Of a DNA stretch of 64,000 bases, positions 95 to 64,000 are shown piece after piece (within the stretch, counting starts at the first letter, position 1; the number at the start of each line of letters is the position of its first letter). The notes beneath the pieces were generated by a model. That model saw only the letters and a list, made by a program, of their open reading frames with translations. It was not told the DNA's origin and made no database searches. The translations under genes were made by a program, and so were the position numbers. Source of the stretch: Plantactinospora soyae (GTDB lineage: Bacteria; Actinomycetota; Actinomycetes; Mycobacteriales; Micromonosporaceae); the NCBI RefSeq assembly GCF_014874095.1, contig NZ_JADBEB010000001.1, positions 8,184,001-8,248,000 of the forward strand. The letters run 5' to 3'.

Positions 95-2209
95 TCATCC
101 GGCGCCGCCGGGGTGGGGCCGCCGGTCGGTCCGGACAGCGCCGGCGCCGGTGGAGGTATCGGTGCCGGTGGAGGTGTCGGTGCCGGTGGAGGTGTCGGTG
201 TCGACGGGGATCCAGACCCGCATCGGCCCGGGGTCCCGATTGCCCCAGAGGAAGTACGGCACCGCGCTGAGCCTGATCCGCGCGCCGGAACCCGTCGGCG
301 GCGTGGTCCCGGCGCGGTAGAGCGCGGCCGGGCCGGGCGGCGCCACGATGCCGCCGACGGTCAGCGCCACGGCATCCGGCGGGCCGCCGGCGACCTCGGC
401 GGTTCCCAGCGGTGCCGCCGGGTCGAGGCGGACGTCCTCCAGCCGCGTACCCGGTGGCAGGTCCGCCTGCTCCAGGCAGTACACCAGCGGACCGCGGATC
501 AGGGCGAGACAGCCGCGTACGGCATCGACGTACGGATGCGCCGCCACCAGCCGTGGCGGCATGGCCAACTCCAGCGTCACGGTGCCGGAGGACCAGTCCC
601 GGGTCAGCCGCAGGTACCCGTCGTCGACCGTCACGTCGGCGCCGTCGGCCTCGACCCGGTAGTCCTGGCACCAGCCCGGAATGCGCAACGCCAACGTCCA
701 CGGCTCGGTGGACTCCGCCCGCACGCCGACCTCCACCCGACCGGCCCACGGGTACCCGGTCCGCACCGTCACCCGGACCGGCCGGCCGTGCACCGTCGCG
801 TGGACCGTGCCGGCGGCGTACAGGTGCAGCTGCACTCCGTGCCCGTCCCCGCTGGCGGTGTACGCCTGCAACGAGGCCATCAGCCGGGCCAGGTTCGGCG
901 GGCAGCAGGCGCAGGCGTACCAGGGCATCCGCCGATCCGGGGCGTCGGAGTCGGAGCCATCGTGCCCGGTACGCAGTTGCAGCGGATTGGAGTAGAAGAA
1001 GTGCGTACCGTCCAGGGCGGTGGACCCGGCGACGGCGTTGTAGAGCACCCGTTCCATCTCGTCGGCGTACCGGTGTGCGCCGTCGGCGAGCAGCATCCGC
1101 CAGTTCCACTGGAAGCTGGCGACCGCCGCACACGTCTCGGCGTACGCCCGGTCCGGCGGCAGCTCGTACGGGTCGCCGTACGCCTCGTCGCGGTGCCGCG
1201 AGCCGTGCGCGCCGGTGACGTACGTCTTGGTCAGGTAGGCGCTGTCCCAGAGCCGGCGCGCCGCCGCCAGTAGTGAATGGTCGCCGGTCTCCACCGCCAC
1301 GTCCACCACCCCGGCCAGCAGGTAGAGCTGGCGTACGGCATGCCCGGCGACCTCGTCGGCGTCCCGTACCGGCACGTGGTCCTGGAGGTACACCGGGCCG
1401 AACCGCTCGGCGTTCAGCAGCCCGCGCCCGCGCAGGTCGACGAAGCGCCGGGCCAGGTTGAGGTAGGGCCGGTGCCCGGTGCTGCGGTACAGCTCGACCA
1501 GCGCGGTCTCGACCTCGGGATGCCCGCACACCGCCTCGACACCGTCCGGCCCGAACCGGTCGAGCAGCAGGTCGGCGAGGCGCCGCGCGACCGTTTCCAG
1601 CGAGTTGCCCACGCCCACCCGGGCGGTCGCCACGGCGGCCTGGAAGAGGTGTCCGGCGCAGTACAGCTCGTGGCTCCAGTGCAGCTCCTGCCACCTCCGG
1701 TCCGGCCGCTCGGCCATCACGTACGAGTTGAGGTAGCCGTCCGCGTCCTGCACCTGGGCCAGCAGCGCGACGGTGGACTCCAGGAAGTCCCGCAGTTCGG
1801 TGCCGGGCTGCGGACGGGCGAGTTCCCAGGCCGCCGCCTCCAGCGTCTTGTAGACGTCGGAGTCGGAGAACCACATACCGGTGAAGGCGCCGCACCCGTC
1901 CCCGTTGCCGTTGCCGCCGTTGCCGTCGCGGTCGCCGTTGCCGTTGCCGCCGTTGCCGTCGCGGTCGCGCAGCCGGCGCAGGTTGTCCAGCGCGCCGGCC
2001 CGGTCCAGTTGCGCCACGCAGTGCGGCAGGGTGGCGGCGGCGTTCCGGGCCTGCCACTGGCCGAGCAGTCCGGCCGGATCGAGCCGTACGTCGTCGAGCC
2101 CGAGCGGGTGCAGCGTGGCGACGGCGTCCGGCGTCGGCTGGGCGGGTCCGGTCCGGGTCGCCACGCGGTGCGCGACGGTCGGGTCGGGGTGTACATCCGG
2201 ATGCAGCAT
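95..2209 (-). CDS. GH127 beta-L-arabinofuranosidase, cytoplasmic
   Basis: DUF1680/GH127 enzyme of 704 aa, expected to release L-arabinose from beta-L-arabinofuranosyl ends such as those on hydroxyproline. The zinc/catalytic signature is visible: E358-T-C360 and the C435-C436 pair before PPN, matching the Glu338/Cys340/Cys417/Cys418 arrangement known for Bifidobacterium HypBA1. There is no signal peptide, so it probably acts on imported oligosaccharides. Two low-complexity insertions stand out: a Gly/Asn/Asp stretch near residues 83-106 and a Thr/Ser/Asp hexapeptide repeat near the C-terminus, both from tandem DNA repeats. It diverges from a LacI regulator gene, and a LacI-type operator covers its predicted transcription start. 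The family call is firm; the exact substrate is inferred. Confidence 0.9.
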   Translation of the reverse strand: MLHPDVHPDPTVAHRVATRTGPAQPTPDAVATLHPLGLDDVRLDPAGLLGQWQARNAAATLPHCVAQLDRAGALDNLRRLRDRDGNGGNGNGDRDGNGGNGNGDGCGAFTGMWFSDSDVYKTLEAAAWELARPQPGTELRDFLESTVALLAQVQDADGYLNSYVMAERPDRRWQELHWSHELYCAGHLFQAAVATARVGVGNSLETVARRLADLLLDRFGPDGVEAVCGHPEVETALVELYRSTGHRPYLNLARRFVDLRGRGLLNAERFGPVYLQDHVPVRDADEVAGHAVRQLYLLAGVVDVAVETGDHSLLAAARRLWDSAYLTKTYVTGAHGSRHRDEAYGDPYELPPDRAYAETCAAVASFQWNWRMLLADGAHRYADEMERVLYNAVAGSTALDGTHFFYSNPLQLRTGHDGSDSDAPDRRMPWYACACCPPNLARLMASLQAYTASGDGHGVQLHLYAAGTVHATVHGRPVRVTVRTGYPWAGRVEVGVRAESTEPWTLALRIPGWCQDYRVEADGADVTVDDGYLRLTRDWSSGTVTLELAMPPRLVAAHPYVDAVRGCLALIRGPLVYCLEQADLPPGTRLEDVRLDPAAPLGTAEVAGGPPDAVALTVGGIVAPPGPAALYRAGTTPPTGSGARIRLSAVPYFLWGNRDPGPMRVWIPVDTDTSTGTDTSTGTDTSTGAGAVRTDRRPHPGGAG
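146..199. repeat. 18-bp tandem repeat, 3 copies, inside the GH127 gene
   Basis: Three consecutive 18-bp units (146-163, 164-181, 182-199), the first differing at one base. On the coding strand they encode a Thr/Ser/Gly/Asp hexapeptide repeat near the GH127 C-terminus. The length keeps the frame, so copy-number changes would be tolerated. Confidence 0.9.
1902..1967. repeat. 33-bp exact tandem duplication inside the GH127 gene
   Basis: Two identical 33-bp units (1902-1934, 1935-1967) encode two copies of an 11-residue Asp/Gly/Asn-rich segment in the N-terminal part of the GH127 protein. It looks like a recent slippage duplication in a surface loop. Confidence 0.9.
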
Positions 2210-2439
2210 CGGGCTTCGTCCTCCAGGCGCGCGGTGGTCGTCGGGTGCCCAGGTACGGGCGGGCGGTCACCGGATTGCAGCGCGCCGGAGTCGACCGAGC
2301 CGAGGCTTCCCGACTGCAGGTTGAGCAACGCGACCGGCAGGGTGAACCTGTCCCCGTCGGTCAGGAAGATCAACGGTGCGTCGATCTCGCTCCAGGCTGC
2401 CAGGAACGAAAAGAACGCGACGCCATCGAGAAAATTAAA

Positions 2440-2485
2440 GAAATCGTTTGCTTCAAGGCTAGGCGTTTATGTCGACGGCGGTCAA
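2440..2485 (-). promoter_or_regulatory. Leftward promoter with LacI-type operator for the GH127 gene
   Basis: Read on the minus strand: -35 TTGACC (2485-2480), an 18-bp spacer, -10 TAGCCT (2461-2456), then operator GCAAACGATTTC (2451-2440) over the expected start site. The operator fits the LacI-family core AANCGNTT. The same -10 context (11 shared bases, 2457-2467) and geometry recur before the gene that starts at 6653. It lies between the GH127 gene and the divergent LacI gene, so autoregulation is plausible. Confidence 0.75.
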
Positions 2486-2586
2486 TAGATGTTTCTGATG
2501 CCTGGTCCGGGGAGTCTCCTGGATCCCGGAGGGCGGGCGAGGTCGCGCTATGCTCGCTGCGCAAGCAAGGAAACCGGGAGGAAAAC

Positions 2587-3657
2587 GTGTCGCACCGCGA
2601 TCCGCCCACCATCAGTGACGTGGCAGCGCTGGCGGCGGTGTCGGTGGGCACGGCATCGAAGGCGTTGAACGGTCGCGGTTCCATGCGCCCGGAGACCCGA
2701 CAACGGGTACGGGAGGCCGCCGAGCGACTGGGATTCCGGGCCAGCGCCGCCGCCCGCAGCCTCCAGGCCGGACGGACGTACACGGTCGGCATGATCACCA
2801 CCGACTCGATCGGCCGGTTCAGCATCCCGGTCATGCTCGGCGCCGAGGACTCACTCGGCGCCGGCCGGATGTCGGTCTTCCTCTGCGACGGCCGCGACGA
2901 TCCGATCCGGGAGCAGTACTACCTCGACACGCTGTTGAGCCGCCGGGTGGACGGCATCATCGTGACCGGCCGTCGGGCCCAGCCGCGTCCACCGGTCCGG
3001 GCCAACCTGCCGGTACCGGTCGTCTACGCCTTCATCAGCTCGACCGACCCGGACGACTGCTCGGTACTGGTCGACGAGGCCGACGGCGCCACCAAGGCGG
3101 TCGAACACCTGCTCGCGATCGGTCGACGCCGGATCGCCCACGTCAGCGGGCCCGAGCACCACCAGTCCGCGGCGACCCGTTGCACGACGGCGGCCGGCCG
3201 GCTGGCCGGGGCGGGACTGGAGTTCGCCGCACCGCCGATGTTCGGCGAGTGGAGCGAGGCCTGGGGCCGGCACGCCGCCGGCACCCTGCTCGCCAACGGA
3301 CACGACTTCGACGCGGTCTTCTGCGGCAGCGACCAGATCGCCCGTGGTGTCGCGGACGGCCTGCGCGCGGCCGGCCGTCGGGTCCCCGACGACGTGGCCC
3401 TGGTCGGCTTCGACAACTGGGACGTCATGGCGATGGCCTGCCAGCCGCCGCTGACCAGCGTCGACATGGACCTGGAGGGGGTCGGCCGGGCCGCCGCCGA
3501 CATGCTGCTGGCCGCGATCAACGGCCAGCCGGCACCCGGCCGGCACTACCGACCGTGCCGGCTGGTGGCCCGCGAGTCCACGGCGGTCACGGTCCGACCC
3601 GCCCCGGGGACCGCCCCGGCGCCGCCGGACCGGCTTGCCGCGCAGCCGCGTACCTGA
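2587..3657 (+). CDS. LacI-family transcriptional regulator
   Basis: 356-aa repressor with an N-terminal LacI helix-turn-helix (about residues 9-60, ISDVAALAAVSVGTASKALN) and a periplasmic-binding-protein-like effector domain. The GTG at 2587 is chosen because GGAGG lies 6-10 bases upstream and the protein then starts directly before the HTH; an in-frame extension back to 2245 is non-coding in character. It is divergent from the GH127 gene. Its likely targets are the three GCAANCGNTTTC sites at 2440, 6897 and 56498, which makes it the probable local regulator of this sugar regulon. The effector is unknown; an arabino-oligosaccharide is my guess. Confidence 0.9.
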   Translation: MSHRDPPTISDVAALAAVSVGTASKALNGRGSMRPETRQRVREAAERLGFRASAAARSLQAGRTYTVGMITTDSIGRFSIPVMLGAEDSLGAGRMSVFLCDGRDDPIREQYYLDTLLSRRVDGIIVTGRRAQPRPPVRANLPVPVVYAFISSTDPDDCSVLVDEADGATKAVEHLLAIGRRRIAHVSGPEHHQSAATRCTTAAGRLAGAGLEFAAPPMFGEWSEAWGRHAAGTLLANGHDFDAVFCGSDQIARGVADGLRAAGRRVPDDVALVGFDNWDVMAMACQPPLTSVDMDLEGVGRAAADMLLAAINGQPAPGRHYRPCRLVARESTAVTVRPAPGTAPAPPDRLAAQPRT

Positions 3658-3673
3658 CCCGACCGGAGTGGGC

Positions 3674-3725: not shown

Positions 3726-6653
3726 CTAGCGCGGCAGCGTCACGTCGACGTAGTCCAGGTCCACCGTTCCGGGTTGGGGCCCGCCGGGGTGGTCGGGATG
3801 GCCCTTGGCGAGGGTGATGGTCGAGGTTCCGGCGGGCAGTTCGACGATGGCCGTGGTCTGCCGGATCATCTCCCGGAACTGCGTCGGCGCGTAGGAGACG
3901 ACCTGCCACGGGCCCTCGTTCACCCGTAGGAGATGACCCGACCTGGTCTGCGCCCGCCGTTCGGCCTCGGTGCCGGCGGTGGAGTACCCGATCTTCAGCC
4001 GGTACCGACCGGCGGCCGGCACCGTGACCGGCAGCCGCAGGTTGCTGTCGGGCTGACTCAGGTCGCGGACGTACGCGTCGTTCGAGACGTACGGGGCGAA
4101 GAAGTTGTTCTCGTCCATGTCGATGCTGACCAGACTCGCGCCGGACCACTCCCCCCGCTCCGCCTCGACCCGGACCCGGAAGGGGGACACGTCGAGATGG
4201 TCCACCCCGACGGCGTGGGACCCGACCCGGAGGGTGACCCGGTTCGGCCCCTTCCTCAGCACCGCCTGGATCCGGCTGGTCGAGAAGGGGGTCGCCGCCG
4301 TGGTCGGCGCGTACTCGACGGCACGGGTTCCGGCGCCGGTCAGCACGCTGCCCCGGACCGGCGAGCCCGACGGGTTGGTGTAGCGGACGTCCAGGTCGTA
4401 CGCGCCGGCCGCCGGTGCGGTGACGACGAAGGAGAGGTCCCGGTGGCCGGTCCGCCCCGGTCGCACGTACCGGTTGTCGGACGCCAGTGGGCTGTCCCCG
4501 GTCGACCAGGACCGGTGGTCGGCCGCCTCGGCCTCGTAGCGCCGCTCCGGGCCGGTGAGGTCGGGTGCCTCCCGATCCGGCCGGATCACCGCCAGGTAGG
4601 CGTCCGAGTCCTGAAGTCCGGAGAGCGGAATGGAGATCTTCCCGTCGCGTACCGGATAGCTTCCGGCAAAGAGCGCGACCGGGCCCTCGGAGACGCCGTC
4701 GGTCCCGGTCCACTCGGTGGTGAACACCTGCACGTTCGCCTTCTTGCCGAAGCCGCGCAGCGCGGACAGGCCACGGACGGCAAGCTGGAGGTCGCCGTCA
4801 CCGCCCCCGAAGGCGACCCGAACCGTCCTGGTACGCGGATCCGCACTGGCGAAGCCGTCCGGCGCGGGCAGCCGCTCGACGCCCTCGATCCGGGTGACCA
4901 CCGTGCCGCTGCGCTGGTTGCCCGACGAGTCGGTCGCGGTGGCACCGCCGGTCTCGTCGAGGCGGTACCAGGCGACGTCGCCTCCGCCCACCGCACCGCC
5001 AGGCGAGGTCATCAGCGACCGGACCTCGGCCGGCGCGAGGCCCCGACGGAAGATCTGGAAGTCGTCGACCGTCCCGTCGAGCAGCGGATCGGGGTACTGG
5101 GAACGGCCGATCCAGTTGTTCGTGGTGTCGCCGCCGGCCAGGTCGGACGGGCTCAGCGTGAGGTTGGGGTTGCTGCCGACCGGTTCGCCGTTGACGTACA
5201 GCGTGCCGGTGTTCCCGGCCTTCGTCAGCGCCACGTGGGTCCAGCCGGTGGGCAGCGGCGCGGTGCCGTTGATCTGCTGCTCGGCGGCACCACCGTTGTT
5301 GGTGATCGAGAACCGTACGGCGTTGTTCGTGGCGGCGTCACCCGAGCGCGGCGTCAGGAACATGTTCACCTGGGTGCTCGCGCCGAAGTCGAAGATCCTC
5401 GACCAGTCCGGCGTCGAGGCCAGGTTCACCCAGGTCGAGACGGTGAAGTCGGTCAGGCCACGGAGGACGCCGGGCGGAACCTCCAGGTACCGGTTCGGAT
5501 CGGTGCCGTTCAGCTTGATCGCGTTGCCGAAACCGTCCCGGCTCGGCACCCGGGTCGCCAGCGCCGGTGTCGGGTCGCCCACCTCGATCACCCGGCCCGC
5601 CCGGGACGGCGGCGTGGTCTCGACCATGTTCCCGGTCATCTCGCCGTACCACTTGAACAGCCAGTAGTTGCCGGTGGGTTCGGCCTGACGCGCCGGGCCG
5701 GAGCCACCGCCGACCGGCACCAGCAGGTCGGCGAGGCGCCCCGGCTTGTGCCAGAAGGCGAGGTTGGCGGTGTCCACCTCGGCCCGTTCCAGCCGGGCCA
5801 CGAACCGGGTCAGCCAGCCCGGGACACCGGCGTCGCGCGGTGCGCCGTACTCGTTGATGCTGATCGGCAGCGGGCCGATCCCGAACTCCTTCTCCAACTC
5901 GCGGTAGCTCTCCACCCGGCCCTCGACGTCGACGCCGCGCGCCGTGCCGAGTTCGTGCCAGGAAATGATGTCGGGCACCGTGTCGGACGCGACGGCGGCG
6001 GTCAGGAAGGCCCGCATCCCGCTCTCGTAGTCACGGTCGTGGCTGGGGCCGATGATCGGGGTGTCGGGGTCGAGCGTGCGGATCAGCCGGTAGGTCCGGG
6101 CCCACATCTCGTCGAAGTCGCCCCAGCTCGAATTCCAGGTCCACTGTGGCTCGTTCCAGATCTCGTACCCGTAGATGTTGTCCGCCCCCGACGCCAGGGT
6201 GGCCCGGACCATCTTCTCGACCTGCTCGTACCAGTAGTCGTCGCCCTGCCACTGGTAGGGGAAGCTGGGGAAGATGTCGGGCAGCCGGACGGTGACCGTC
6301 GCGCCGTGGCGCCTGGCCACCGGCCACACCTTCAGGGTGTCACCGACCGGCGCGGGCTCCCCGTTGGGCTGGTGGGTCGCGCCCGGCGGCGGTTGGGTGA
6401 ACATCTTCGGCCGGACGGCGGCGATCCATGGGTCGGCCGGCCAGCCCTCGTCGCCCAGCCCGTACAGGGAGCCCGATGCCGCGTGGTCGACCTTCTTGAA
6501 CGGCTTGGCGACGTCGACGTCGAGCACCATCGGAGCCCGGCCGGGCAGGCCGGCGGCCTGGCTCGGCTCGGCCTCGCCCGCTACGGCGGTCCCGGCGGTG
6601 ACCAGTAGGGCCGCCGCGACGGCGGCGCGCAGAGTTCGGTGTCGCACATGCAC
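3726..6653 (-). CDS. Secreted GH39-like clan A glycosidase with LamG and CBM6/35-like modules
   Basis: 975-aa exported glycosidase. Order: Sec signal peptide (1-34), TIM-barrel catalytic domain (about 45-345) with acid/base E168 in WNEP and candidate nucleophile E268 in INEYG, a LamG/concanavalin-type jelly roll (about 375-555), then two CBM6/CBM35-like beta-sandwich modules (about 725-840 and 845-975). The WNEP/NEY pair is typical of clan GH-A retaining enzymes. GH39 is the best visual match, but GH5 or another clan member is possible. The LamG segment closely resembles the one nested in the gene at 25849. The promoter carries the same operator as the GH127 gene at 95. The substrate is probably a plant wall polysaccharide or glycoprotein glycan. 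Confidence 0.8.
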   Translation of the reverse strand: MHVRHRTLRAAVAAALLVTAGTAVAGEAEPSQAAGLPGRAPMVLDVDVAKPFKKVDHAASGSLYGLGDEGWPADPWIAAVRPKMFTQPPPGATHQPNGEPAPVGDTLKVWPVARRHGATVTVRLPDIFPSFPYQWQGDDYWYEQVEKMVRATLASGADNIYGYEIWNEPQWTWNSSWGDFDEMWARTYRLIRTLDPDTPIIGPSHDRDYESGMRAFLTAAVASDTVPDIISWHELGTARGVDVEGRVESYRELEKEFGIGPLPISINEYGAPRDAGVPGWLTRFVARLERAEVDTANLAFWHKPGRLADLLVPVGGGSGPARQAEPTGNYWLFKWYGEMTGNMVETTPPSRAGRVIEVGDPTPALATRVPSRDGFGNAIKLNGTDPNRYLEVPPGVLRGLTDFTVSTWVNLASTPDWSRIFDFGASTQVNMFLTPRSGDAATNNAVRFSITNNGGAAEQQINGTAPLPTGWTHVALTKAGNTGTLYVNGEPVGSNPNLTLSPSDLAGGDTTNNWIGRSQYPDPLLDGTVDDFQIFRRGLAPAEVRSLMTSPGGAVGGGDVAWYRLDETGGATATDSSGNQRSGTVVTRIEGVERLPAPDGFASADPRTRTVRVAFGGGDGDLQLAVRGLSALRGFGKKANVQVFTTEWTGTDGVSEGPVALFAGSYPVRDGKISIPLSGLQDSDAYLAVIRPDREAPDLTGPERRYEAEAADHRSWSTGDSPLASDNRYVRPGRTGHRDLSFVVTAPAAGAYDLDVRYTNPSGSPVRGSVLTGAGTRAVEYAPTTAATPFSTSRIQAVLRKGPNRVTLRVGSHAVGVDHLDVSPFRVRVEAERGEWSGASLVSIDMDENNFFAPYVSNDAYVRDLSQPDSNLRLPVTVPAAGRYRLKIGYSTAGTEAERRAQTRSGHLLRVNEGPWQVVSYAPTQFREMIRQTTAIVELPAGTSTITLAKGHPDHPGGPQPGTVDLDYVDVTLPR

Positions 6654-8009: not shown

Positions 8010-9044
8010 ATGACAGACCTTCGAAGCACGGTACGCCGGCGGAGGATCGCGACGCTCGCCTGCGTACCCCTGCTCGCTCTCGGGGCCACCGCCTGCGCCA
8101 AGGACGGCGACGGGGGCGGCGACGCCACGGCGGCGAAGTACCCCACCAAGACGATCCAGTTGATGGCGCCCGCCGCACCCGGCGGCGGTTGGGACAGCAC
8201 CGCCCGGGCGCTACAGAAGACGCTGACCGAAGGCAAGCTGGTCACCGAGTCGGTCGAGGTGACCAATGTGACCGGTGCGGGCGGCACCCTCGGGCTCTCC
8301 CAGTTGGTGACGAAGAACCGGGGCGACGCGCACCAGCTCATGGTGACCGGGCTGGTGATGATCGGCGGCGTGGTGACCAACAAGTCACCGGTCAACCTCG
8401 GCCAGGTCACGCCGATCGCCACGCTCACCGCCGAGCAGGAGGTGATCGTCGTACCGGCGGACTCGAAGTACACCACGCTCCAGCAACTGATGGCCGACGC
8501 CAAGACCAGCCCGGCATCGATCAACTGGGGCGGTGGCTCGGCCGGTGGCACCGACCAGATCCTCGTCGGGCTGCTCGCGAAGGCCGCCGGTGCGGATCCG
8601 AAGGCGATGAAGTACGTCGCCTACTCCGGCGGCGGCGAGTCCAAGGCCGCCCTGCTCTCCGGCGACCTGACCGCGGCGGTCTCCGGCGCCAGCGAGTACC
8701 GCGACCTGGTCGCGGGTGGCCAGGTCCGAGCCCTGGCGGTCTCCGGCGCCACCGGCATCGACGTCGGCGCCGGCAAGCCCACCCCGACGATCAAGGAATC
8801 CGGGTACGAGGTGGAGCTGATGAACTGGCGCGGCATCGTCGCCGCCCCGGGGATCTCCGACGGCGAGCGTGCGGCGATCATCGCGCTGATCGACCGGCTG
8901 CACGCCTCCGAGCAGTGGAAGCAGACGTTGACCGCACAGCGGTGGGACGACTTCTACCGCAGCGGTGCCGAGGCGAAGACCTACTTCGACGAGGAGACCA
9001 AGCGGATCACCGACGTGCTGACCGAGATCGGTCTGGCCGGTTGA
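8010..9044 (+). CDS. tctC: Tripartite tricarboxylate transporter substrate-binding lipoprotein
   Basis: 344-aa TctC/BugE-type solute-binding protein. N-terminal lipoprotein signal with the lipid-attachment Cys at residue 29 (GATAC), then the family fold beginning KTIQLMAPAAPGGGWDSTAR. The second ATG (8010) is preferred over 7983 because GAGGAG lies about 8 bases upstream of it. It overlaps tctB by one base (TGATG), so TctC, TctB and TctA are translationally coupled. It binds small carboxylates, probably a di- or tricarboxylate; the ligand is not readable from sequence. Anchored outside the membrane. Confidence 0.92.
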   Translation: MTDLRSTVRRRRIATLACVPLLALGATACAKDGDGGGDATAAKYPTKTIQLMAPAAPGGGWDSTARALQKTLTEGKLVTESVEVTNVTGAGGTLGLSQLVTKNRGDAHQLMVTGLVMIGGVVTNKSPVNLGQVTPIATLTAEQEVIVVPADSKYTTLQQLMADAKTSPASINWGGGSAGGTDQILVGLLAKAAGADPKAMKYVAYSGGGESKAALLSGDLTAAVSGASEYRDLVAGGQVRALAVSGATGIDVGAGKPTPTIKESGYEVELMNWRGIVAAPGISDGERAAIIALIDRLHASEQWKQTLTAQRWDDFYRSGAEAKTYFDEETKRITDVLTEIGLAG

Positions 9045-9676
9045 TGTCGTCGGAGACGGATATCCGGGGAGGGGCGGCCGAGCCGGTCGCCCTTCCTCCG
9101 GCGCCCTGGGGTGCCCGGATCCTCGGCGGCGTACTGCTGGCGGTCGGGCTCTTCCTGCTCTGGACGGCGTACGACTCCGCCGAGGGCGACTTCTCGCCGC
9201 ACGGACCGTGGCTGGCCCCGCTGGTGGTGACGATCGGCTGGGTGGTGCTCGCCACCTGGTACCTGGCCGTCCAGTTCGGACCGTCGAGCCGCCGGCCCGT
9301 TCCCGATACCGCCGAGCAGATCGACCGGCCCGAGCAGGCTGAGCAGGGCGAGCAGACCGACCACCAGTCTGAGCAGACCGTCCGGCCTGAGGAGACCGAG
9401 CAGGCTGACGAGACCGAGCAGGGCGAGCCGGTGCCGGCCGTACAGTGGCTCACTCCGGCCCTGCTCTGCGCGGCGCTGATCGGTTACGTCCTGCTCCTCT
9501 CCCCGATCGGATTCGTGCTCGCCTCGGCGGTCTTCTTCCCCGCCTGCGCCCGGATCCTCGGCAGCCGGCACAGCCTCCGCGACGTCGCGGTCGGAGTGCC
9601 GTTGGCGCTCGGCGTCTACTACGGCTTCACCCTGGGGCTCGACATCACGCTGCCGGCCGGGGTGCTGCCGCTGTGA
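9044..9676 (+). CDS. tctB: Tripartite tricarboxylate transporter small membrane subunit
   Basis: 210-aa TctB protein with four predicted membrane segments (about 30-50, 62-82, 138-160 and 180-200). Between the second and third helices lies an unusual Glu/Gln/Asp/Thr-rich repeat stretch (about 95-135), encoded by imperfect GAGCAG-type repeats; typical TctB proteins have a short loop here. It is coupled to tctC by TGATG and to tctA by a GTGA overlap. Forms the membrane complex with TctA. Confidence 0.88.
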
Positions 9677-11223
9677 ACGTCTTCGGCGATCTCCTCGGCG
9701 GCTTCGGCACCGTGCTCGAACCGCAGTACCTGCTCTACGCGGCGATCGGCGTCACCCTCGGCACCTTCGTCGGGGTGCTGCCCGGAATCGGCCCGGCGCT
9801 GACCATCGCGCTGCTGTTGCCGGTCACGTTCAACCTGGACGACCCGATCGGCACGTTCATCATGTTCGCCGGCATCTACTACGGCGCCATGTACGGCGGG
9901 TCGACCACCTCGATCCTGCTGAACACCCCCGGCGAGTCCGCCTCGGTGGCCACGGCGATCGAGGGGTACCAGATGGCCCGGCGCGGGCGGGCCCGGGCCG
10001 CGCTGGCGACGGCGGCGATCGGCTCGTTCGTCGCCGGCACCATCTCGACGCTGCTGCTCACCCTCTTCGCCAAACCGGTCGCCTCGCTCGCCACCTCGTT
10101 CCGCGCGGCGGACTACTTCGCGCTGGCCCTGCTGGCGATGGTCGCGGTCACCGCGCTGGTCGGCCGATCCCTGGTACGCGGGCTGATCTCGCTGAGCCTC
10201 GGCCTGTTCCTGGGACTGGTCGGGCTCGACGAACTGACCGGCCAGGCCCGGTTCAGCTTCGGCACCCTGGAACTGCTCGACGGCATCGACGTGGTGGTCA
10301 TCATCGTCGGCCTCTTCGCCATCGGCGAGACGCTCTACGTGGCGAGCCGGCTCCGCCGGTTGCCCGAGCACGTGACCCCGCTGGAGCCGGGCGGTGGCGG
10401 TTTCGGCTGGCTCAGTCGACAGGACTGGGCCCGTTCGTGGCGGCCCTGGCTGCGCGGCACCGCCGTCGGCTTTCCGTTCGGGGCGCTCCCGTCCGGCGGT
10501 GCCGACATCCCCACCTTCCTCTCCTACACCTACGAACGGCACCGGGCGAAGAACCGGGCCGAGTTCGGCAAGGGGGCGATCGAGGGCGTCGCCGGTCCCG
10601 AGGCGGCGAACAACGCGGCGTTCTCCGGCGTACTCGTGCCGCTGCTCACCCTCGGCATCCCCACCTCGGCCACGGCGGCGGTGATGCTTGCCGCGTTCCA
10701 GAACTTCAACGTGCAACCGGGTCCGCAGCTCTTCGACAAGTCACCGGAACTGGTCTGGGCGCTGATCGCCTCCCTGTACGTCGGCAACGTGCTGCTGCTC
10801 GCCCTGAACCTGCCACTGATCCGGCTCTGGGTACGGGTCCTCCAGATCCCCCGACCGATGCTGTACGCCGGCATCCTGGTCTTCGCGACCCTCGGCGTGT
10901 ACGCGGCCACGAACAGCGTCATCCAGGTGCTGATCGCGTACGGCATCGGGGTGATCGGGTTCTTCATGCGGCACTTCGAGTTCCCGATCGCACCGGTGAT
11001 CCTCGGCGCCATCCTCGGCCCGATGATGGAGTTGCAGTTCCGGCGCACGCTGGTGCTCTCCAACGGGGACCTGAGCGTCTTCGTCACCCGTCCACTGACC
11101 GCGGTGCTGCTCGGACTGGTGGTCGTCGCGGTGCTGGTGCCGTTCCTGCCCCGGATCATCGCGCGGTTGCGGGGCCGCTCCCCCGCCTCGGCGCGGCGCC
11201 TCGCGTTCGGCGAGGACGACTGA
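9673..11223 (+). CDS. tctA: Tripartite tricarboxylate transporter large permease
   Basis: 516-aa TctA permease with about 12 membrane segments. Family landmarks include the early glycine-rich [17 protein letters not shown] and [19 protein letters not shown], and later [22 protein letters not shown] start at 9673 overlaps the tctB stop. Completes a proton- or sodium-driven carboxylate uptake system with TctB and the TctC lipoprotein. Convergent with the response-regulator gene downstream. Confidence 0.93.
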
Positions 11224-11245
11224 GCAGGGCGAGCGGGCGAGCAGG

Positions 11246-11920
11246 TCAGGTTCCGCCGGTCCACCGGTAGCGTCGTTCCGGTCGGCCGGCGGAGCCGTAC
11301 CGCAGGCTCACCCCGGCCTTGCCGGAGCCGACGAAGTGTTCCAGGTAGCGGCGGGTGCTGACCCGGGACAGCCCGACCCGGTCCGCGCACTCGGTCGCGG
11401 ACAGGTCACCGTCGGCGGCCCGCAGTGCCGCCGCGACCAGGTCCGCGGTCGGCTGGGTGAGCCCCTTGGGCAGCCCGAACGGGGTCGGCCGGAGCGCCAC
11501 GAAGAGCCGGTCGACGTCGTCCTGCGCCACCTCCTGGGAGCCGGTGAGCCGGCGCTGGGCGGCGGCGTACCGTTCCAGGCTGTCGCGCAGCGCGTCGAAG
11601 GTGAACGGCTTGATCAGATAGTGCACGACCCCGCCGCGCAGGGCGGTCCGGATCGTGCTGACGTCGCGGGCGGCGGTCACCGCGAGCACGTCCACCACCA
11701 CGTCGCCCTCGCGCAGCCGGCGCAGCACCTCCAGCCCGGACAGGTCCGGCAGGTAGATGTCCAGCAGCACCAGGTCGGGCCGGAGCCGGTGTACCGCGTC
11801 CAGCGCCTCCGCGCCGCTGTGCGCCACCCCGACGACCTCGAACCCGGGTGTCCGCTCGACGAAACCGCACTGCACCTTCGCGACCATGAAGTCGTCGTCG
11901 ACGACCAGCACCCGGATCAT
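11246..11920 (-). CDS. CitB/DctR-type response regulator
   Basis: 224 aa: receiver domain (1-120) with acidic pocket D8-D9-D10, phospho-acceptor D54 in VLLDIYLPD and the conserved Lys in LIKPF, then a C-terminal DNA-binding helical domain of the CitB/DcuR class (about 155-220, ECADRVGLSRVSTRRYLEH). It overlaps the sensor kinase gene by 4 bases (ATGA), so the pair is co-expressed. Context makes it the probable activator of the neighbouring tct genes in response to the transported carboxylate. Confidence 0.92.
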   Translation of the reverse strand: MIRVLVVDDDFMVAKVQCGFVERTPGFEVVGVAHSGAEALDAVHRLRPDLVLLDIYLPDLSGLEVLRRLREGDVVVDVLAVTAARDVSTIRTALRGGVVHYLIKPFTFDALRDSLERYAAAQRRLTGSQEVAQDDVDRLFVALRPTPFGLPKGLTQPTADLVAAALRAADGDLSATECADRVGLSRVSTRRYLEHFVGSGKAGVSLRYGSAGRPERRYRWTGGT

Positions 11921-13491: not shown

Positions 13492-13681
13492 CGCTCCTCC
13501 TCGTCCCGCCCCGGCGCCACGCCGGTCCGCTCCGTCTCCGTCCGGGTTCGGCACGGCGCGCGGCGGCCGGCGCCCGACCCACAACGACGGAGGCTTCCAC
13601 CTGGCCAGCGGCGACGTCAACCGGCAAACTACCGGGGGCCGGGGTGGTGACAACGGGTCGCCGGGCGATGAGGATCGGCGG

Positions 13682-46702: not shown

Positions 46703-46830
46703 CATCCTCCACTGCCCTAATGGGCGGGGATTCCCTTGGTCGCCCTTGGGGTTTCCTGCTTCGACGCCGACTGCCTCGTCCGGGCGTCCGCCCGTTGAGG
46801 TCTTACACCGGCTCCACAGGCCGTGACGGA
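46703..46830 (-). ncRNA. Predicted right-end omega RNA (guide RNA) of TnpB
   Basis: In studied TnpB elements the guide RNA covers the 3' end of tnpB and the right-end hairpin, with the guide taken from flanking host DNA. Here that would be minus-strand RNA from about 46830 to 46703, with the guide reading leftward into the end of the permease gene near 46702-46683. Positions are inferred from the family, not seen directly. Confidence 0.35.
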
Positions 46831-47925: not shown

Positions 47926-48080
47926 GGCCCACACCGTAGCGAACCAGCTAGCAAGCCCTACGGCGGCGCGCGGATGGACGCCTGTCCGCCTTGGCGGCGG
48001 ACCGGCTATCCCTGCCCTGCCCCGCAGGAGTTCCGTTTCCTCTCCGGCCTGAAGGCCGGAGTATCCACGGAAGGAATCCA

Positions 48081-48911: not shown

Positions 48912-48952
48912 ACCCAGCCCAAGGACCGTCGAATCTCTCAAAAGGAGTAGCA

Positions 48953-57941: not shown

Positions 57942-58006
57942 TCAGCAGCTGCGGCGTCAGCAACTACGGCGTCAGTCGAAAGCGTCGTCAGCAGCTGCGG
58001 CGTCAG
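57942..58006. repeat. 19-bp direct repeat at the end of the GH67 gene
   Basis: TCAGCAGCTGCGGCGTCAG occurs at 57942-57960 and 57988-58006, with a degenerate copy between. It lies between the convergent esterase and GH67 stops and includes the last codons of GH67. Confidence 0.8.
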
Positions 58007-60183
58007 TGGATGCGGCGGCCCCGCGCGTCCGGCACCCCGGACTTGCGGAAGAAGTAGGTGTTGATCTGGTCCCGCCACTCCTGGGCACCGCGGAGCTGCT
58101 CGTCGAGGCGTTCCCGCACCCGAGCGTCCAGCTCCGGGTCGACCAGCCCGGCGGTGGAGAGCCGTTCCCAGAGTTGCCGCATCCCGGCCACCCGCTCGGC
58201 CCCGGCGAAGTGGGTGTCGTAGATGTGCTGGATCACCGTCGACCCGCTGTGCAGGAGGTGCCCGTAGGGAACGTGGTGGAAGAAGAGCAGCAGTTCGTCG
58301 GGACACCGCTGCGGCGACTCGTACACGTCCGACCACGGCTGCGGGTACTGGCCGGCGTACCCCGTTCCGGACTTCCGCGTCCGGTCGACGCCGATACCGT
58401 CCCGGTCCGCGAAGTGGTACGTGCCCCACGGCGTGTACTCGTAGCCGTCCACGTCCGGGCCGTAGTGGTGCTCGGGACGGACCATGAAGCCGACCCCCAG
58501 CGGCGCCGTGTACTGCTCGTAGGTGTGCCAGGAGTCGTCCATGATCTCGTGCAACGTCCGCCGGAGCAGCTCCGGGTCGGCGGTCGACGACGGCACGAAG
58601 GTGAGGTCGATCCACTCGTCGAGGATCGCCGACGGGTCCAGCTCTGGTGCCCAGGCGAGCCGACCGAAGGCGTACAGGTTGGCCTGGGCGAGCGGATGTC
58701 CGGTCCAGAAGGGATCGTCCCCCACGTTCGACACCGCGACCAGCCCGCCACCGGCCGCCGAGGCCGAGCCGGCGGCACCGGCCACAGCGGCCGGGCCGGC
58801 GTCGCCGGGCGTCGAGCCGGCGGCCACGGCGGCGACGGTCGGACCGCCGGCACCCCAGGGGCCGAACTCCAGCACCTCACGCCAGAGCGGGCCCAGATAG
58901 CAGACGTGCCGTTGCTGACCCGTGTACTCCTGCGTCACCTGGAACTCCACCGCCAGTCGGGTGGCCGGCATCGCGGCGATCACCGGCGAGACCGGCTCAC
59001 GCACCTGGAAGTCCATCGGACCGTGCTTCACCTGCAGGATCACGTTGTCCCGGAACTGGCCGTCGAGCGGGGCGAAGTGGTCGAAGGCCGCGCGGGCCCG
59101 GTCGGTCGACCGGTCGCGCCAGTCCTGCCGGTGGTTGTAGACGAAGGCACGCCAGTGCACGACCCCGTCGTACGGGGCCAGCGCCTCGGCGAGGACGTTG
59201 GCGCCGTCGGCGTGGCTGCGCCCGTACGCGAACGGGCCCGGCTGCCCCTCGGAGTCGGCCTTGACCACGTAGCCCCCGAAGTCGGGGATCGTCCCGTACA
59301 CCTGCGCGGTGGTGCCGGCCCACCAGGCCCGGACCTGCTCGTCCAGCGGGTCGGCCGAGGGTAGTCCACCGAGGACGATCGGCGCGGCGAAGCTGACCGA
59401 CAGGAACACCCGGACCCCGTACGGACGCAGCAGTTCCGCGATCGCGGCCACGTCACCGAGCCGATCCGTCAGCAGCCGCGCCTCGGTGGCGTGCACGTTC
59501 ACGTTGTTCACCGCTACCGCGTTCACCCCGCAGGCCGCCAACAGCCGCCCGTACGCCCGCACCCGTGCCGGGTCGCGGCGCGGTCCACCGTCCTGCCAGA
59601 AGATCGAGCCGCCCGCGTAGCCGCGCTCGACCTGCCCCATCCGGTGATGCACGTCGACGTTGTCCCAGTGGTCGAGCATCCGCACCCGCATCGCCGGCCG
59701 GTGCCGCTCGACGGGACGGTCGGCGCCGAACGCGGACTCGCCGAGCCGGACCAGGTGGAACAGCCCGTAGAGCAGTCCGTTCGGGGCGTCCGCCAGCAGC
59801 ACCGTGGTGTCGCCGTGCCGGGCCAGGACGAAGCCCTCGTCGCCGAGCGGGTCCGCGCGCTCGGCGTACCGCTGCCGGAACTCGACCTCGACCGACGCCG
59901 CCTGCGCCGGCAGTGGTGCCGTGCCGCGGAGCGCGAGCACCAGGTCGAACGCCTCGGCTCCGGGGTCGGCCTCCCCCGCCACCGCCGGCTGCTCGGCGGC
60001 CGGACCCGGCTCCTGGTGTACCAGGTGACCGCCGTGCCGGACGCCGGCCTGCGCCACCTCGTCCAGCACGGTGTCGACGAGCGTTCCGGCGCCGTGCACC
60101 AGAGTCCGGCGGGAGCCGAGCGCGCGGAACGCCTCCGGCGGCAGCCAGGCCGGATGGACGCCGGGCGGGTGGGGAATGGTCAC
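58003..60183 (-). CDS. GH67 alpha-glucuronidase, cytoplasmic
   Basis: 726 aa. Catalytic acid Glu312 (KADSEGQPGP) and the base pair Asp391/Glu396 in MDFQVREP match GH67. Domains: N-terminal beta-sandwich (1-150), TIM barrel (about 155-460) and a C-terminal helical dimer domain. No signal peptide, so it acts on imported aldouronic acids, removing (4-O-methyl-)glucuronic acid from xylo- or other oligosaccharides. An alanine/glycine-rich insertion (about 455-500) is unlike the family. ATG at 60183. Separate from the GH43 gene behind it by a terminator hairpin. Confidence 0.93.
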   Translation of the reverse strand: MTIPHPPGVHPAWLPPEAFRALGSRRTLVHGAGTLVDTVLDEVAQAGVRHGGHLVHQEPGPAAEQPAVAGEADPGAEAFDLVLALRGTAPLPAQAASVEVEFRQRYAERADPLGDEGFVLARHGDTTVLLADAPNGLLYGLFHLVRLGESAFGADRPVERHRPAMRVRMLDHWDNVDVHHRMGQVERGYAGGSIFWQDGGPRRDPARVRAYGRLLAACGVNAVAVNNVNVHATEARLLTDRLGDVAAIAELLRPYGVRVFLSVSFAAPIVLGGLPSADPLDEQVRAWWAGTTAQVYGTIPDFGGYVVKADSEGQPGPFAYGRSHADGANVLAEALAPYDGVVHWRAFVYNHRQDWRDRSTDRARAAFDHFAPLDGQFRDNVILQVKHGPMDFQVREPVSPVIAAMPATRLAVEFQVTQEYTGQQRHVCYLGPLWREVLEFGPWGAGGPTVAAVAAGSTPGDAGPAAVAGAAGSASAAGGGLVAVSNVGDDPFWTGHPLAQANLYAFGRLAWAPELDPSAILDEWIDLTFVPSSTADPELLRRTLHEIMDDSWHTYEQYTAPLGVGFMVRPEHHYGPDVDGYEYTPWGTYHFADRDGIGVDRTRKSGTGYAGQYPQPWSDVYESPQRCPDELLLFFHHVPYGHLLHSGSTVIQHIYDTHFAGAERVAGMRQLWERLSTAGLVDPELDARVRERLDEQLRGAQEWRDQINTYFFRKSGVPDARGRRIH

Positions 60184-60310: not shown

Positions 60311-61720
60311 CTATCCGGTCGGGACGACCGGTTGGATGGTGCCGTCGGCGTTGAACCGCATCTGGTCGACGGTCACCTCGCGGTTGGTGCCGTTGCCGGC
60401 TGGGATGGCAAACCGGTGGTACGCCATGTACCACGTGTCACCGGTCGGTGACCTGACGATCGAGTGGTGGCCCGGACCCTTGACGCCGATGGACAGGTTC
60501 TTGGCCAGGATCGTTCCGCGATGGGTCCACGGGCCCAGCGGCGAGGTACCGGTGGCGTACTCGACGTGGTAGTTCTCCGAGCGGGTGTCGTCCACCGAGT
60601 ACGACAGGTAGTAGGTGCCGTTGCGCTTGAACACGAACTCGCCCTCCCGGAAGTTCGGCAGGCTGAACGTACGCACGGCGGTGGCGTCGAACGAGAGCAT
60701 GTCCGGGTTCAGCCTGACCGCGTAGGCGGAGCCGTTGCCCCAGTACAGGTACGAGGTGCCGTCGTCGTCGGTGAAGACGGCCGGGTCGATCATCTGTCCG
60801 GGGCGGAAGCCGGCGGCGATCAACGGTCGGCCGAGCGCGTCGGTGAACGGCCCGGCCGGGCTGGTGCTGGTGGCCACTCCGATGTTCGTGTCGGCGCAGA
60901 AGTAGAAGTAGTACCGCCCGTTCCGGTATGCGATCGCCGGTGCCCAGGCCCGCGAACTCGCCCAGGAGACGCTGGGGCCGACGTCCAGGATGGTGCCGTG
61001 GTCGGTCCAGTTGACCAGGTCGGTTGAGGAGAACGCCTTGAACCGGGTGCCGCTCCAGCCGTTGTAGCCATCGGTGGTCGGATAGACGTAGTACCGGCCG
61101 TCCAGGTAGGCGATGTGCGGATCGGCGTACAGGCCCTTGAGCACCGGGGTACGGCGTCCCGCCGCCCACGGCGCCCGGACCCAGAACGAGCTGTCGGCGG
61201 CGAAGGTGCCGGGATTGGTCGTGCTGGGGTCGAGCCACAGTTCGGAGTCGCGGTGCCGGACGAACCGGCCCGGATAGTTGGCCGATTCCAACCGTGCCGA
61301 CCCGGCGACGGATCCGTCCCGGACGCAGAACGTCGCGTCGGCCAGGGATCCGGTGGTACCGGCGTTGAGGTCGAGCCGCAGCCGGAAGTCGAGGTGCCGC
61401 AGCCATCGGCCGTCGGCGGCCTGGAAGGAGACGCAGCCGGCGCCGCCGGCCAGGCCGGGGGTGACGGTGAAGGTGGCGTCCTGCTTGGCGACCGTGCCGC
61501 TGCCGCTGGTGATCGGGTCGACCCGCCCGAGGTAGTCGCTGTGCCGCAGGTACCGGCCGGCGAGGTTCACCGACTCCAGCGAACGGGCGCCGGTCGCGAT
61601 CGTGGCCGCCTGTGCGGCCGTACCGGCGACGGCGGGCAGCAGCGTCGCACCGAGTACGACGACCAGGGCACGTGCGGTCATCCGGCCCACAGTGGGCAGC
61701 GCCTGGACATCCGAGTTCAT
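60311..61720 (-). CDS. Secreted GH43 arabinofuranosidase/xylosidase with AbfB (CBM42) domain
   Basis: 469 aa. Signal peptide (1-38), AbfB arabinose-binding beta-trefoil (about 42-185; SLESVNLAGRYLRHSDYLGR), then a five-bladed GH43 propeller with base Asp200 (YADPHIAYLDG), pKa modulator Asp312 (IDPAVFTDDDG) and acid Glu359 (FREGEF). The AbfB module binds arabinofuranose side chains, so an arabinan/arabinoxylan/arabinogalactan target is likely. The promoter holds a TGTTAGCG-type operator overlapping the -10 box. Confidence 0.9.
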   Translation of the reverse strand: MNSDVQALPTVGRMTARALVVVLGATLLPAVAGTAAQAATIATGARSLESVNLAGRYLRHSDYLGRVDPITSGSGTVAKQDATFTVTPGLAGGAGCVSFQAADGRWLRHLDFRLRLDLNAGTTGSLADATFCVRDGSVAGSARLESANYPGRFVRHRDSELWLDPSTTNPGTFAADSSFWVRAPWAAGRRTPVLKGLYADPHIAYLDGRYYVYPTTDGYNGWSGTRFKAFSSTDLVNWTDHGTILDVGPSVSWASSRAWAPAIAYRNGRYYFYFCADTNIGVATSTSPAGPFTDALGRPLIAAGFRPGQMIDPAVFTDDDGTSYLYWGNGSAYAVRLNPDMLSFDATAVRTFSLPNFREGEFVFKRNGTYYLSYSVDDTRSENYHVEYATGTSPLGPWTHRGTILAKNLSIGVKGPGHHSIVRSPTGDTWYMAYHRFAIPAGNGTNREVTVDQMRFNADGTIQPVVPTG

Positions 61721-61753
61721 CGTGATCGCTCCCCGGGGCCGCGTTGGGGACGA

Positions 61754-61782
61754 GTGTTAGCGATAACATAACGGACTGTCAA
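61754..61782 (-). promoter_or_regulatory. Promoter and TGTTAGCG-type operator for the GH43 gene
   Basis: Minus strand: -35 TTGACA (61782-61777), 17-bp spacer, -10 TAACAC (61759-61754). The operator TGTTAGCGATAACA (61755-61768) has perfect 5-bp TGTTA/TAACA arms and covers the -10. The same type is at 25782-25795. Likely repressed by a LacI-type regulator, perhaps the hybrid encoded at 61799. Confidence 0.75.
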
Positions 61783-61798
61783 GTCCTTCGATGTCTCG

Positions 61799-62887: not shown

Positions 62888-62933
62888 TGATGACCGTTTC
62901 AGATCGAAACCTTTCAGAAGCCTTGACGTTACC

Positions 62934-62948
62934 GCATCGAAACGATGC
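62934..62948. promoter_or_regulatory. Palindrome GCATCG-AAA-CGATGC in the divergent promoter
   Basis: Perfect 6-bp arms, between the hybrid regulator and the galactanase gene. ATCGAAAC also occurs at 62903-62910. TTGACG at 62923-62928 could be a -35 for the rightward gene. Candidate operator for the hybrid regulator. Confidence 0.6.
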
Positions 62949-63002
62949 ACTCGGGTCCTGCACAGTGACCGGCTTCCATGTCTTACATCCCCAAGGATCA
63001 TC

Positions 63003-64000
63003 ATGATGGCTCGTCAACGCCTGTCCGTACCACGATCAACCACAGTGGACCGCCCCGGGCGGCGACCGAGCTCCCGGCTCGGGATGGCGCGGCGCGCGGC
63101 ACTCGTGTTGACGCTTCTGCTCGCCAGCGTCGCCGTCGGCTACGGCGCGACGCCGGCCCAGGCCGCACCGGTCACGATCGCCAACGGCACCCAGTTCCGC
63201 GACACCGGTGGCAACGTCCTGCACGCCCACGGCGGCGGTGTGCTGAAGGTGGGCGACTACTACTACTGGTTCGGCGAGAACCGGAACTCGAACAACACGT
63301 TCCGGGCGGTCTCCGTCTACCGGTCCACCGACCTCAAGAACTGGGAGTTCCGGAACAACGTCCTGACCCAGTCGTCGCACTCCGAGCTGAACGTCGCCAA
63401 CATCGAACGTCCCAAGGTCATCTACAACAGCTCCACCGGCCGGTACGTGATGTGGATGCACAAGGAGAACGGATCCGACTACGGCGAGGCGCGGGCCGCC
63501 GTCGCCTCCTCCGCCACCGTCGACGGCGCCTACACGTACCACGGCAGCTTCCGGCCGCTGGGGCACATGTCCCGGGACATCACGCTCTACAACGACAACG
63601 GTACGGCGTACATGATCTCGGCGGCCGACGAGAACTACGACCTGCACATCTACCGGCTGACCTCGGACTACCTGAGCATCGGCACGCTGGTGGGCAACTT
63701 CTGGGACGGTGCCCACCGCGAGGCCCCGGCGATGTTCAAGCGGGGCAGCGTCTACTTCCTGCTGACCTCCGGGGCGACCGGCTGGAGCCCGAACCAGGCG
63801 AGATACGCGACCGCGTCGAGCATCTCCGGGCCCTGGACCGGCTGGACCAACGTCGGCAACTCGACGACCTTCGACTCCCAGCCGACGTACGTGCTGCCGA
63901 TCCAGGGCTCGTCGACGACCAGCTACCTGTACCTGGGCGACCGCTGGGCCGGGGCCTGGAGCGGGCCGGTCAGCGACTCCCAGTACGTCTGGTTGCCGAT
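63003..64000 (+). CDS. Secreted GH43_24-type exo-beta-1,3-galactanase (partial, cut by window end)
   Basis: At least 332 aa, open at the window end. Long signal region (about 1-55, hydrophobic core 32-48), then a GH43 propeller opening with HAHGGGVLKVGDYYYWFGEN, the pattern of exo-beta-1,3-galactanases. Key residues Glu135 (NIERPKV), Glu240 (HREAPAM) and Gln293 (FDSQPTY) match the subfamily in which Gln replaces the catalytic Asp. Expected to trim the beta-1,3-galactan backbone of arabinogalactan proteins. AAGGA lies 5 bases before the first of two adjacent ATGs (63003, 63006). Confidence 0.85.
   Translation, partial: MMARQRLSVPRSTTVDRPGRRPSSRLGMARRAALVLTLLLASVAVGYGATPAQAAPVTIANGTQFRDTGGNVLHAHGGGVLKVGDYYYWFGENRNSNNTFRAVSVYRSTDLKNWEFRNNVLTQSSHSELNVANIERPKVIYNSSTGRYVMWMHKENGSDYGEARAAVASSATVDGAYTYHGSFRPLGHMSRDITLYNDNGTAYMISAADENYDLHIYRLTSDYLSIGTLVGNFWDGAHREAPAMFKRGSVYFLLTSGATGWSPNQARYATASSISGPWTGWTNVGNSTTFDSQPTYVLPIQGSSTTSYLYLGDRWAGAWSGPVSDSQYVWLP

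Follow-up and report, generated by a model that had tools for sequence, protein, structure and literature searches.

Arabinofuranosidases beside hydroxyproline catabolism genes in Plantactinospora soyae, and a candidate gene run for arabinosylated hydroxyproline peptides in other actinobacteria

The window analysed here is a stretch of 64,000 nucleotides from Plantactinospora soyae, whose genome is a single contig of 9.7 Mb. It holds 49 genes by a codon-model gene call, most of which were named through Pfam and NCBIfam scans. At its centre lie genes for the breakdown of hydroxyproline (Hyp), namely: a five-gene operon (35637-40502) encoding a racemase-family protein, a DHDPS-family protein and three dehydrogenase subunits; a PucR-type regulator divergent to it (42860-44092, plus strand; PF13556); and a secreted M6-type protease on either side of the operon. 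The first of these proteases (33405-35450, minus strand) scores 155.3 bits against TIGR03296, above its cut-off, and the second (40577-42610, minus strand) reaches 92.6 bits, under the cut-off of 110.8, and has an HEIAH motif. Further out are two small exported genes (32292-33319, minus strand) for a thioredoxin-like lipoprotein and a lipoprotein without family name, a secreted S8 protease (30327-32204, plus strand), a predicted beta-L-arabinofuranosidase exported by the twin-arginine translocation (Tat) route (g20; 25849-28791, plus strand) and an aldehyde dehydrogenase (g19; 24002-25528, minus strand). All three proteases have signal-like N-termini, in agreement with a sequence-only reading of this DNA that had counted three secreted proteases and had taken the whole window for one locus, in which the glycans of plant hydroxyproline-rich glycoproteins are stripped, the backbone is cut and both sugar and Hyp are burned. 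Our comparisons suggest that the clearest union of these layers is in other actinobacteria, and that the window holds a looser, secreted version in a hydrolase-rich region.

The Hyp operon had been called complete, together with an alpha-ketoglutarate semialdehyde dehydrogenase (KGSADH); all of the families are present, but HypE and g19 fall under the NCBIfam cut-offs. HypE (g26; 35637-36641, minus strand; PF05544) holds the motifs MCGH and DRSPCGTG, with both catalytic cysteines. It scores 352.2, 233.5 and 162.9 bits against 4-hydroxyproline epimerase models with cut-offs of 376, 450 and 442, and its top NCBIfam score, 369.4 bits, is to a proline racemase model with a cut-off of 556, so that its naming rests on residues and context. 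Each of the two motifs is found in 70 of 71 HypE-labelled proteins, the exception for the second being L033_18, a 38% paralogue. The residue at the second site (Cys vs. Thr or Ser) separates HypE from trans-3-hydroxyproline dehydratase, and the latter activity is ruled out by the Cys found there. The DHDPS-family gene (36634-37500, minus strand), whose start may lie upstream, encodes a probable pyrroline-4-hydroxy-2-carboxylate deaminase by PF00701 and operon position, and the next three genes (37527-40502, minus strand; PF07992+PF04324, PF13510 and PF01266) make up a FAD/2Fe-2S D-Hyp dehydrogenase-like set; both activities are judged from family and gene order. As for g19, which is 1eyy/3v4c-like and presumably a type III KGSADH, it reaches 106 of 750 and 83.7 of 770 bits against the KGSADH equivalogs of NCBIfam. 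It is the sole KGSADH match at E<=1e-80 in the window genome, and its orthologues (66-67%) lie directly beside the Hyp genes, by g23, in three members of the genus (G032, G058 and G092). Thus, g19 is the probable KGSADH of the Hyp pathway.

Two beta-L-arabinofuranosidases, one cytoplasmic and one Tat-exported, had been read as GH127-type (glycoside hydrolase family 127). Their predicted locations stand, while the family holds for the first enzyme only. g01 (95-2209, minus strand; PF07944+GH127M+GH127C) has no evident signal peptide, is closest among solved structures to 4qjy (376 bits) and has its Zn-binding residues present (ETC at 358, CC at 435). g20, whose start is best placed at 25849 with the Tat signal VSKRFSRRDALRLGAM, scores 243.6 bits against 5opj and 42.7 bits against 3wkw, which we take to be BT0349 and HypBA1, respectively. 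Because the former score is far above the latter, g20 is placed, by structure-based scoring, as a GH146-like enzyme and not a HypBA1-type GH127, and no GH127C domain was called in it. Its catalytic domain is split by a LamG insert of ~230 residues into two PF07944 stretches (2-95 and 97-376), and its Zn site consists of ETC at 597 and CC at 676. This literal ETC..CC pattern is found in 84 of 102 GH146-labelled proteins; among the 18 others, 5 have ESC instead and 13 have no CC pair, the latter being second open reading frames (ORFs) of tandem loci. Such tandem loci (L116, L117, L119-L127, L129 and L130), in which a further GH146-labelled ORF, lacking the Zn-site motif, comes after GH146, in many cases close to a GH43 gene, belong to Cellulosimicrobium, Oerskovia, Isoptericola and Promicromonospora.

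Conservation around the Hyp genes was followed across the family, where 54 of 121 genomes, that of the window included, have a HypE match at E<=1e-100; 45 of these 54 loci were mapped, again with the window, mostly over 20 kb, and G058, G032 and G092 were read over 80 kb each. A core of ~12 kb emerges, consisting of PucR, an M6 protease, the five-gene Hyp operon, the second M6 protease and the two small exported genes. The run from KGSADH through g23, g24, M6 and HypE to the dehydrogenase, M6 and PucR is kept in G058, G032 and G092, while the contig of a further genus member, G104, stops within it. What recurs in the first three is this Hyp/protease core, KGSADH and the S8 protease, a homologue of which lies near KGSADH in each, with GH146 in two of them. 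Of the 45 mapped genomes, 12, from 5 genera, encode an M6-type protease in the stretch read around HypE.

GH146 is found beside the core in three of the five genus members having it (the window genome, G032 and G058), although its placement varies. The enzymes of G032 and G058, 84-85% alike, stand elsewhere relative to the core than in the window: in G032 GH146 starts 57 bp past pucR, in G058 the two genes are separated by one for an S15 X-Pro dipeptidyl-peptidase that has a signal-like N-terminus, and in the window GH146 is on the opposite side of the core, adjoining KGSADH. Family-wide, a PF07944 gene lies within 15 kb of a HypE orthologue in at least 8 of 54 genomes vs. 0.53 expected by random placement, or in 3 of 27 genera vs. 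0.51 expected (simulated P 0.011); the PF07944 family listing, with at least 150 entries, served solely for counts per genome.

The rest of the window is not kept in the same way. With the exception of LacI/ABC homologues at ~30% identity, g01-g18 and g33-g49 were not found in the 80 kb around the core in G058, G032 and G092, and no GH127, GH39-like, TctABC, GH67, GH43 or sugar-ABC gene was seen near the core there. Six genus mates were compared for g01 and have no close orthologue of it, the best match being at 47%. Since the three relatives show none of the outer hydrolase, transporter and regulator genes close to the core, since g01 lacks a close orthologue and since no copy of the LacI-type operator of GH146 was found at the Hyp operon, the 64 kb window is, by these comparisons, not one locus; the conservation seen in the neighbourhood is that of the core, KGSADH and the S8 protease, and not that of the outer genes.

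The operator in question, TGTGAGCGTTAACA (25782-25795, plus strand), lies 53 bp ahead of the GH146 start, and a LacI-type operator also precedes the G058 orthologue. The pattern TGTKAGCGYTMACA has five sites in the genome (5670340, 5917988, 7532726, 7544766 and 8209782), as compared with none for the reversed pattern. Besides the g20 site, one is flanked by a GH5-CBM2 and a GH27-like gene, another lies 279 bp ahead of a GH43 gene and another 426 bp ahead of a beta-helix protein gene with a Pfam match below cut-off; site 7532726 has no clear target, and the CBM2-GH43 gene beside site 7544766 ends there rather than starting there. The five sites, four of them ahead of hydrolase-type genes, make up a candidate LacI-family regulon. 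An arabinose-only regulon was rejected, as the sites precede GH5, GH27-like, GH43 and beta-helix genes. A k-mer comparison, from whose nine slices G092_g31|g32 was left out, gave no common operator of the GH146 promoter and the Hyp operon. With its operator at hydrolase genes and not found at the Hyp operon, g20 is apparently part of a group of plant-wall hydrolases, and a regulon spanning the whole locus is unsupported by these sites.

In other actinobacteria, the two functions meet in a compact form. A query made from an alignment of seven GH146 proteins (four from Glycomyces, three of the window type) gave 177 candidate loci, the best 80 of which were kept; the Glycomyces cases guided the query and are hence not independent, and the remaining loci were found by GH146 alone. 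The co-directional run in Glycomyces encodes OppA-C-B-D-F, an S33-like hydrolase, an Xaa-Pro aminopeptidase (AMP_N + M24), GH146 without signal peptide, GntR, the dehydrogenase subunits, the deaminase, HypE and KGSADH. The S33-like hydrolase weakly resembles prolyl aminopeptidase (33 bits to TIGR01249, cut-off 260). The aminopeptidase-GH146 pair occurs in 52 of the 80 loci, directly adjoining in 50 and with GH36 between in 2; OppA accompanies it in 47/52, the S33-like gene in 47/52 and the full set in 24/52. Core Hyp genes lie in the fetched flank of 32 of the 52 pair loci vs. 0 of the 28 other GH146 loci (Fisher P 6e-9, kinship ignored). Extension of the flanks adds eight linked loci (Catenuloplanes, L099, L100, L102, L111, L114, L131 and L133; seven by overlapping contig stretches) and brings the pair loci physically linked to Hyp genes to 40/52, the flanks of the 28 control loci being extended by a contig check only. 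The linked loci fall in ten genera, namely: Glycomyces, Microbacterium, Brachybacterium, Promicromonospora, Streptomyces, Catenuloplanes, Actinosynnema, Kineococcus, Kineosporia and that of a Ruaniaceae bacterium. As for other pair loci, KGSADH is the sole Hyp-pathway gene shown in L110 and L118, and contig ends cut L105, L112 and L132; the Hyp genes of L112 are on another contig, where they run into GntR-OppA, and HypE was not found in the 2.4 Mb bin of L132.

At the genome level, HypE (64-69% identity to the window HypE) is found in 24 of 25 genomes searched from the 52 pair loci (L118 not included) vs. 9 of 21 control genomes (L092, L123, L128, L130, L135, L144 and L146 left out of the 28). 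One of the nine HypE-bearing controls also holds the operon, and eight have HypE on a contig of another length than that of the GH146 locus. Operon-type GH146 is uncommon, since an even sample of 396 genomes of the phylum gave 3 matches at E<=1e-140, the window genome included and none near HypE; a broad spread was thereby rejected.

Sugar genes accompany some of these loci. In Pseudoclavibacter and Leucobacter GH36 lies between aminopeptidase and GH146, and the Leucobacter run continues with araD, araB, araA, aldose epimerase, galT and galK; in Microbacterium arabinogalactanolyticum araDBA follows GH146. No Hyp genes lie in the flank of these three loci. Among the 52 pair loci GH36 occurs in 6, GH127 in 7 (L075, L077, L078, L079, L099, L100 and L102) and AraA in 2. 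Extensin bears galactose on Ser, which GH36 and the gal genes might address; however, GH36 includes beta-L-arabinopyranosidases and the Leucobacter protein is a weak match to one of them, so galactose as a second sugar is put forward tentatively. Arabinose, in turn, is borne by extensin on Hyp (PMC6085000, available passages).

Gene content, order, conservation and active-site residues are the observations from which we infer substrates, flow and regulation. Best explained, they would reflect a genus-level module for Hyp-containing protein that is digested outside the cell, together with an import-first version in other actinobacteria, a reading to which we give a probability of a little under 0.6. 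In the window genus, the secreted M6 and S8 proteases would cut Hyp-containing protein outside the cell, and the Tat-exported GH146 would take beta-L-arabinofuranose off Hyp (or other beta-arabinofuranosyl ends), opening the backbone to the proteases. Free Hyp would then be burned intracellularly through HypE, D-Hyp dehydrogenase, the deaminase and KGSADH to 2-oxoglutarate. A LacI-family regulator probably links GH146 expression to plant-wall sugars, and PucR probably governs the Hyp genes, so that the two halves would meet on one substrate and not in one regulon. In the import-first version, OppABCDF would import arabinosylated Hyp peptides, cytoplasmic GH146 (in some cases with GH127 or GH36) would deglycosylate them, proline-type peptidases would cut them and the Hyp pathway would burn the product; use of extensin-type arabinosylated Hyp peptides is the best reading of this run. 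Taken more broadly, we consider it likely that at least ten actinobacterial genera have an undescribed system that imports arabinosylated (and Ser-galactosylated) Hyp peptides of extensin type through a dedicated OppABCDF, strips them by cytoplasmic GH146, with the aid of GH127 and GH36 in some, and passes them through proline-type peptidases and the HypE-to-KGSADH pathway. The counterpart in the window genus would digest outside the cell, by means of Tat-exported GH146 and of M6 and S8 proteases, joined in G058 by S15.

Several observations speak against joining arabinofuranosidase and Hyp catabolism in this way. G092, with a 51% paralogue alone, and G104, with no match at E<=1e-100, have no g20 orthologue; the g20 homologues of G021 and G091 (70-74%) are not near HypE. 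The g20 operator, common to GH5, GH27-like and GH43 genes, is not found at the window Hyp operon with up to 3 mismatches. The window genome has just two matches to the operon-type aminopeptidase (E<=1e-20), at 48% and 47% and located elsewhere, and in the lack of a closer match the import-first run seems to be missing there. HypE lies elsewhere in the genome for 7 of the 52 pair loci, on another contig in L070, L075, L076, L081 and L083 and 105 kb and 180 kb away in L080 and L089, respectively. In favour of the reading, the GH146 members XeHypBA1 and Bll4HypBA1 cleave Araf-beta1-Hyp; according to the available passages of the same source members differ in linkage, acting also on beta-1,2- and beta-1,3-linked arabinofuranose (Araf) of arabinan and arabinogalactan proteins (PMC10850190). 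This wider range leaves Hyp-linked arabinose not proven as the g20 substrate. Finally, M6/S8 proteases and Hyp genes would suit collagen or gelatin equally well.

Unlikely, yet the best surviving of the alternatives, is that the genes are chance neighbours: a collagen/gelatin-type protease and Hyp module would lie beside unrelated plant-polysaccharide genes that drift through variable slots of a hydrolase-rich genome. The outer genes missing near the core in three relatives, GH146 switching sides of the core and absent in G092 and G104, five PF07944 proteins in the window genome (six stretches, two within one protein) and the separate operators of GH146 and the Hyp operon would all fit such drift, but GH146 lies near the core in 3/5 genus members, PF07944 genes are found near HypE well above random placement, and the same two functions recur, in another arrangement, in ten other genera. 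We hold it rather doubtful that the Hyp/protease module serves animal collagen or gelatin, with GH146 and the other hydrolases working independently on pectin, arabinan or xylan: M6-type proteases accompany Hyp genes in 12/45 mapped genomes, as compared with at least 8/54 for GH146/GH127, and GH67 and GH43 are hemicellulose enzymes, but GH146, GH36, GH127 and araDBA/gal beside proline-type peptidases and Hyp genes elsewhere are left unexplained. That arabinose and Hyp meet at KGSA, with g15 and g16 oxidising L-arabinose without phosphorylation and sharing g19, is quite improbable: in its favour, the dehydratase and the aldehyde dehydrogenase lie within 7 kb, g15 scores 720.7 bits against the L-arabinonate dehydratase model and g19 is the only KGSADH match at E<=1e-80, but g15 stays under the equivalog cut-off of 882, g16 (a zinc dehydrogenase) reaches no NCBIfam equivalog, neither was found near the core in relatives, and Leucobacter and M. 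arabinogalactanolyticum carry araDBA beside GH146 instead. The claim that arabinofuranosidases and Hyp catabolism serve one substrate is hence backed by the import-first run and by GH146 beside the core in 3/5 genus members, and weakened by G092 and G104.

To our knowledge, accounts of the trans-4-hydroxyproline pathway (HypE, D-Hyp dehydrogenase, deaminase and KGSADH), all steps of which are present here by homology, centre on free Hyp. Among the full-text matches listed (titles and abstract starts; preprints and most subscription papers lie outside), none joins GH127/146 with Hyp catabolism in one cluster; the nearest are PMC10850190, PMC6085000, PMC4454575, PMC4113996 and PMC7263609. HypAA, HypBA1 and HypBA2 of Bifidobacterium longum (GH43, GH127 and GH121) likewise include beta-L-arabinofuranosidases for Hyp-linked arabinose, and GH127 and GH146 have a common Zn-Cys active site (PMC10850190, in part), but the available passages on that system mention neither Hyp catabolism nor an Opp importer or a proline peptidase. 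In the window, GH121 was not called among 50 proteins in general Pfam scans, whose coverage of the GH121 catalytic domain is unconfirmed. XeHypBA1, XeHypBA2 and XeHypAA of Xanthomonas euvesicatoria also feature a GH146 acting on Ara-Hyp, and a prolyl oligopeptidase gene, reported as a pseudogene, adjoins xehypAA; unlike here, the available passages give no Hyp catabolic operon, and a role of these genes in pathogenicity was examined and none found (PMC6085000). A neighbourhood-network study mentions, in the part available, families of peptidases and of ABC/TRAP transporters in the vicinity of one Bacillus group within the family, and the terms DUF1680, PF07944, glycos, collagen and plant do not occur in its main text (PMC4113996). 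For Latescibacteria, GH127 and peptidases were proposed in silico for extensin as part of hydroxyproline-rich glycoprotein degradation; the passages available describe neither a gene cluster nor a Hyp operon linked to them (PMC4454575). Little is understood of how extensins and their hydroxyproline-rich relatives in the plant wall serve as sources of carbon and nitrogen. If uptake, deglycosylation, cleavage by proline-specific peptidases and Hyp breakdown are indeed combined in one compact run, that run would be a marker of this food chain among plant-associated and soil actinobacteria, and its enzymes would form sets whose predicted substrate, Ara-Hyp peptides, is clear.

The outer parts of the window include features that had been listed before, and were found again, as well as others that had not (the GH39-like protein, GH67, the TctCBA importer and the sugar-acid dehydratase). 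On the left, g01 is followed by a LacI-family regulator (2587-3657, plus strand; profile scan) and a secreted GH39-like protein with LamG and CBM35 (3726-6647, minus strand), which matches 5u22 (N2152) at 1.4e-69. Its relative NF2152 is termed an alpha-L-(beta-1,2)-arabinofuranobiosidase, and a GH39 homologue adjoins GH127 in B. catenulatum, in the passages available (PMC10688797). A second GH39-like protein just outside the window (L154:18200-19906) is 41% alike, and the pair flanks g01. Next are a TctCBA importer with histidine kinase, response regulator and second TctC gene (8010-14713; family scan) and g15, a sugar-acid dehydratase of the IlvD/Edd family (18523-20169, minus strand; PRK06131 above cut-off).

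On the right, the sugar ABC importer (45755-50356, plus strand) consists of two permeases and a binding protein. A tnpB gene of IS200/IS605 type (46717-47934, minus strand), with no TnpA called adjoining it, separates the permease genes, both of which stay open. The GH67 alpha-glucuronidase (58003-60183, minus strand; profile scan) points to glucuronoxylan and not to hydroxyproline-rich glycoprotein. The secreted AbfB-GH43 protein (60311-61720, minus strand) has a LacI-type site with one mismatch just upstream (61755-61768). A GH43_24-type exo-beta-1,3-galactanase gene (63084-64000, plus strand) runs past the window end; read whole (L151), it scores 515.7 bits against 3vsf, which we take to be Ct1,3Gal43A, also matches 7bys, whose entry name is galactan 1,3-beta-galactosidase, and carries a ricin-type lectin domain. 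Similar siderophore-type ABC genes lie after GH146 in G058 (L009:16067-19916) and ~2.8 kb past the window end (L066:2770-6558); going by N-termini and gene order, they may delimit a variable slot next to the Hyp core.

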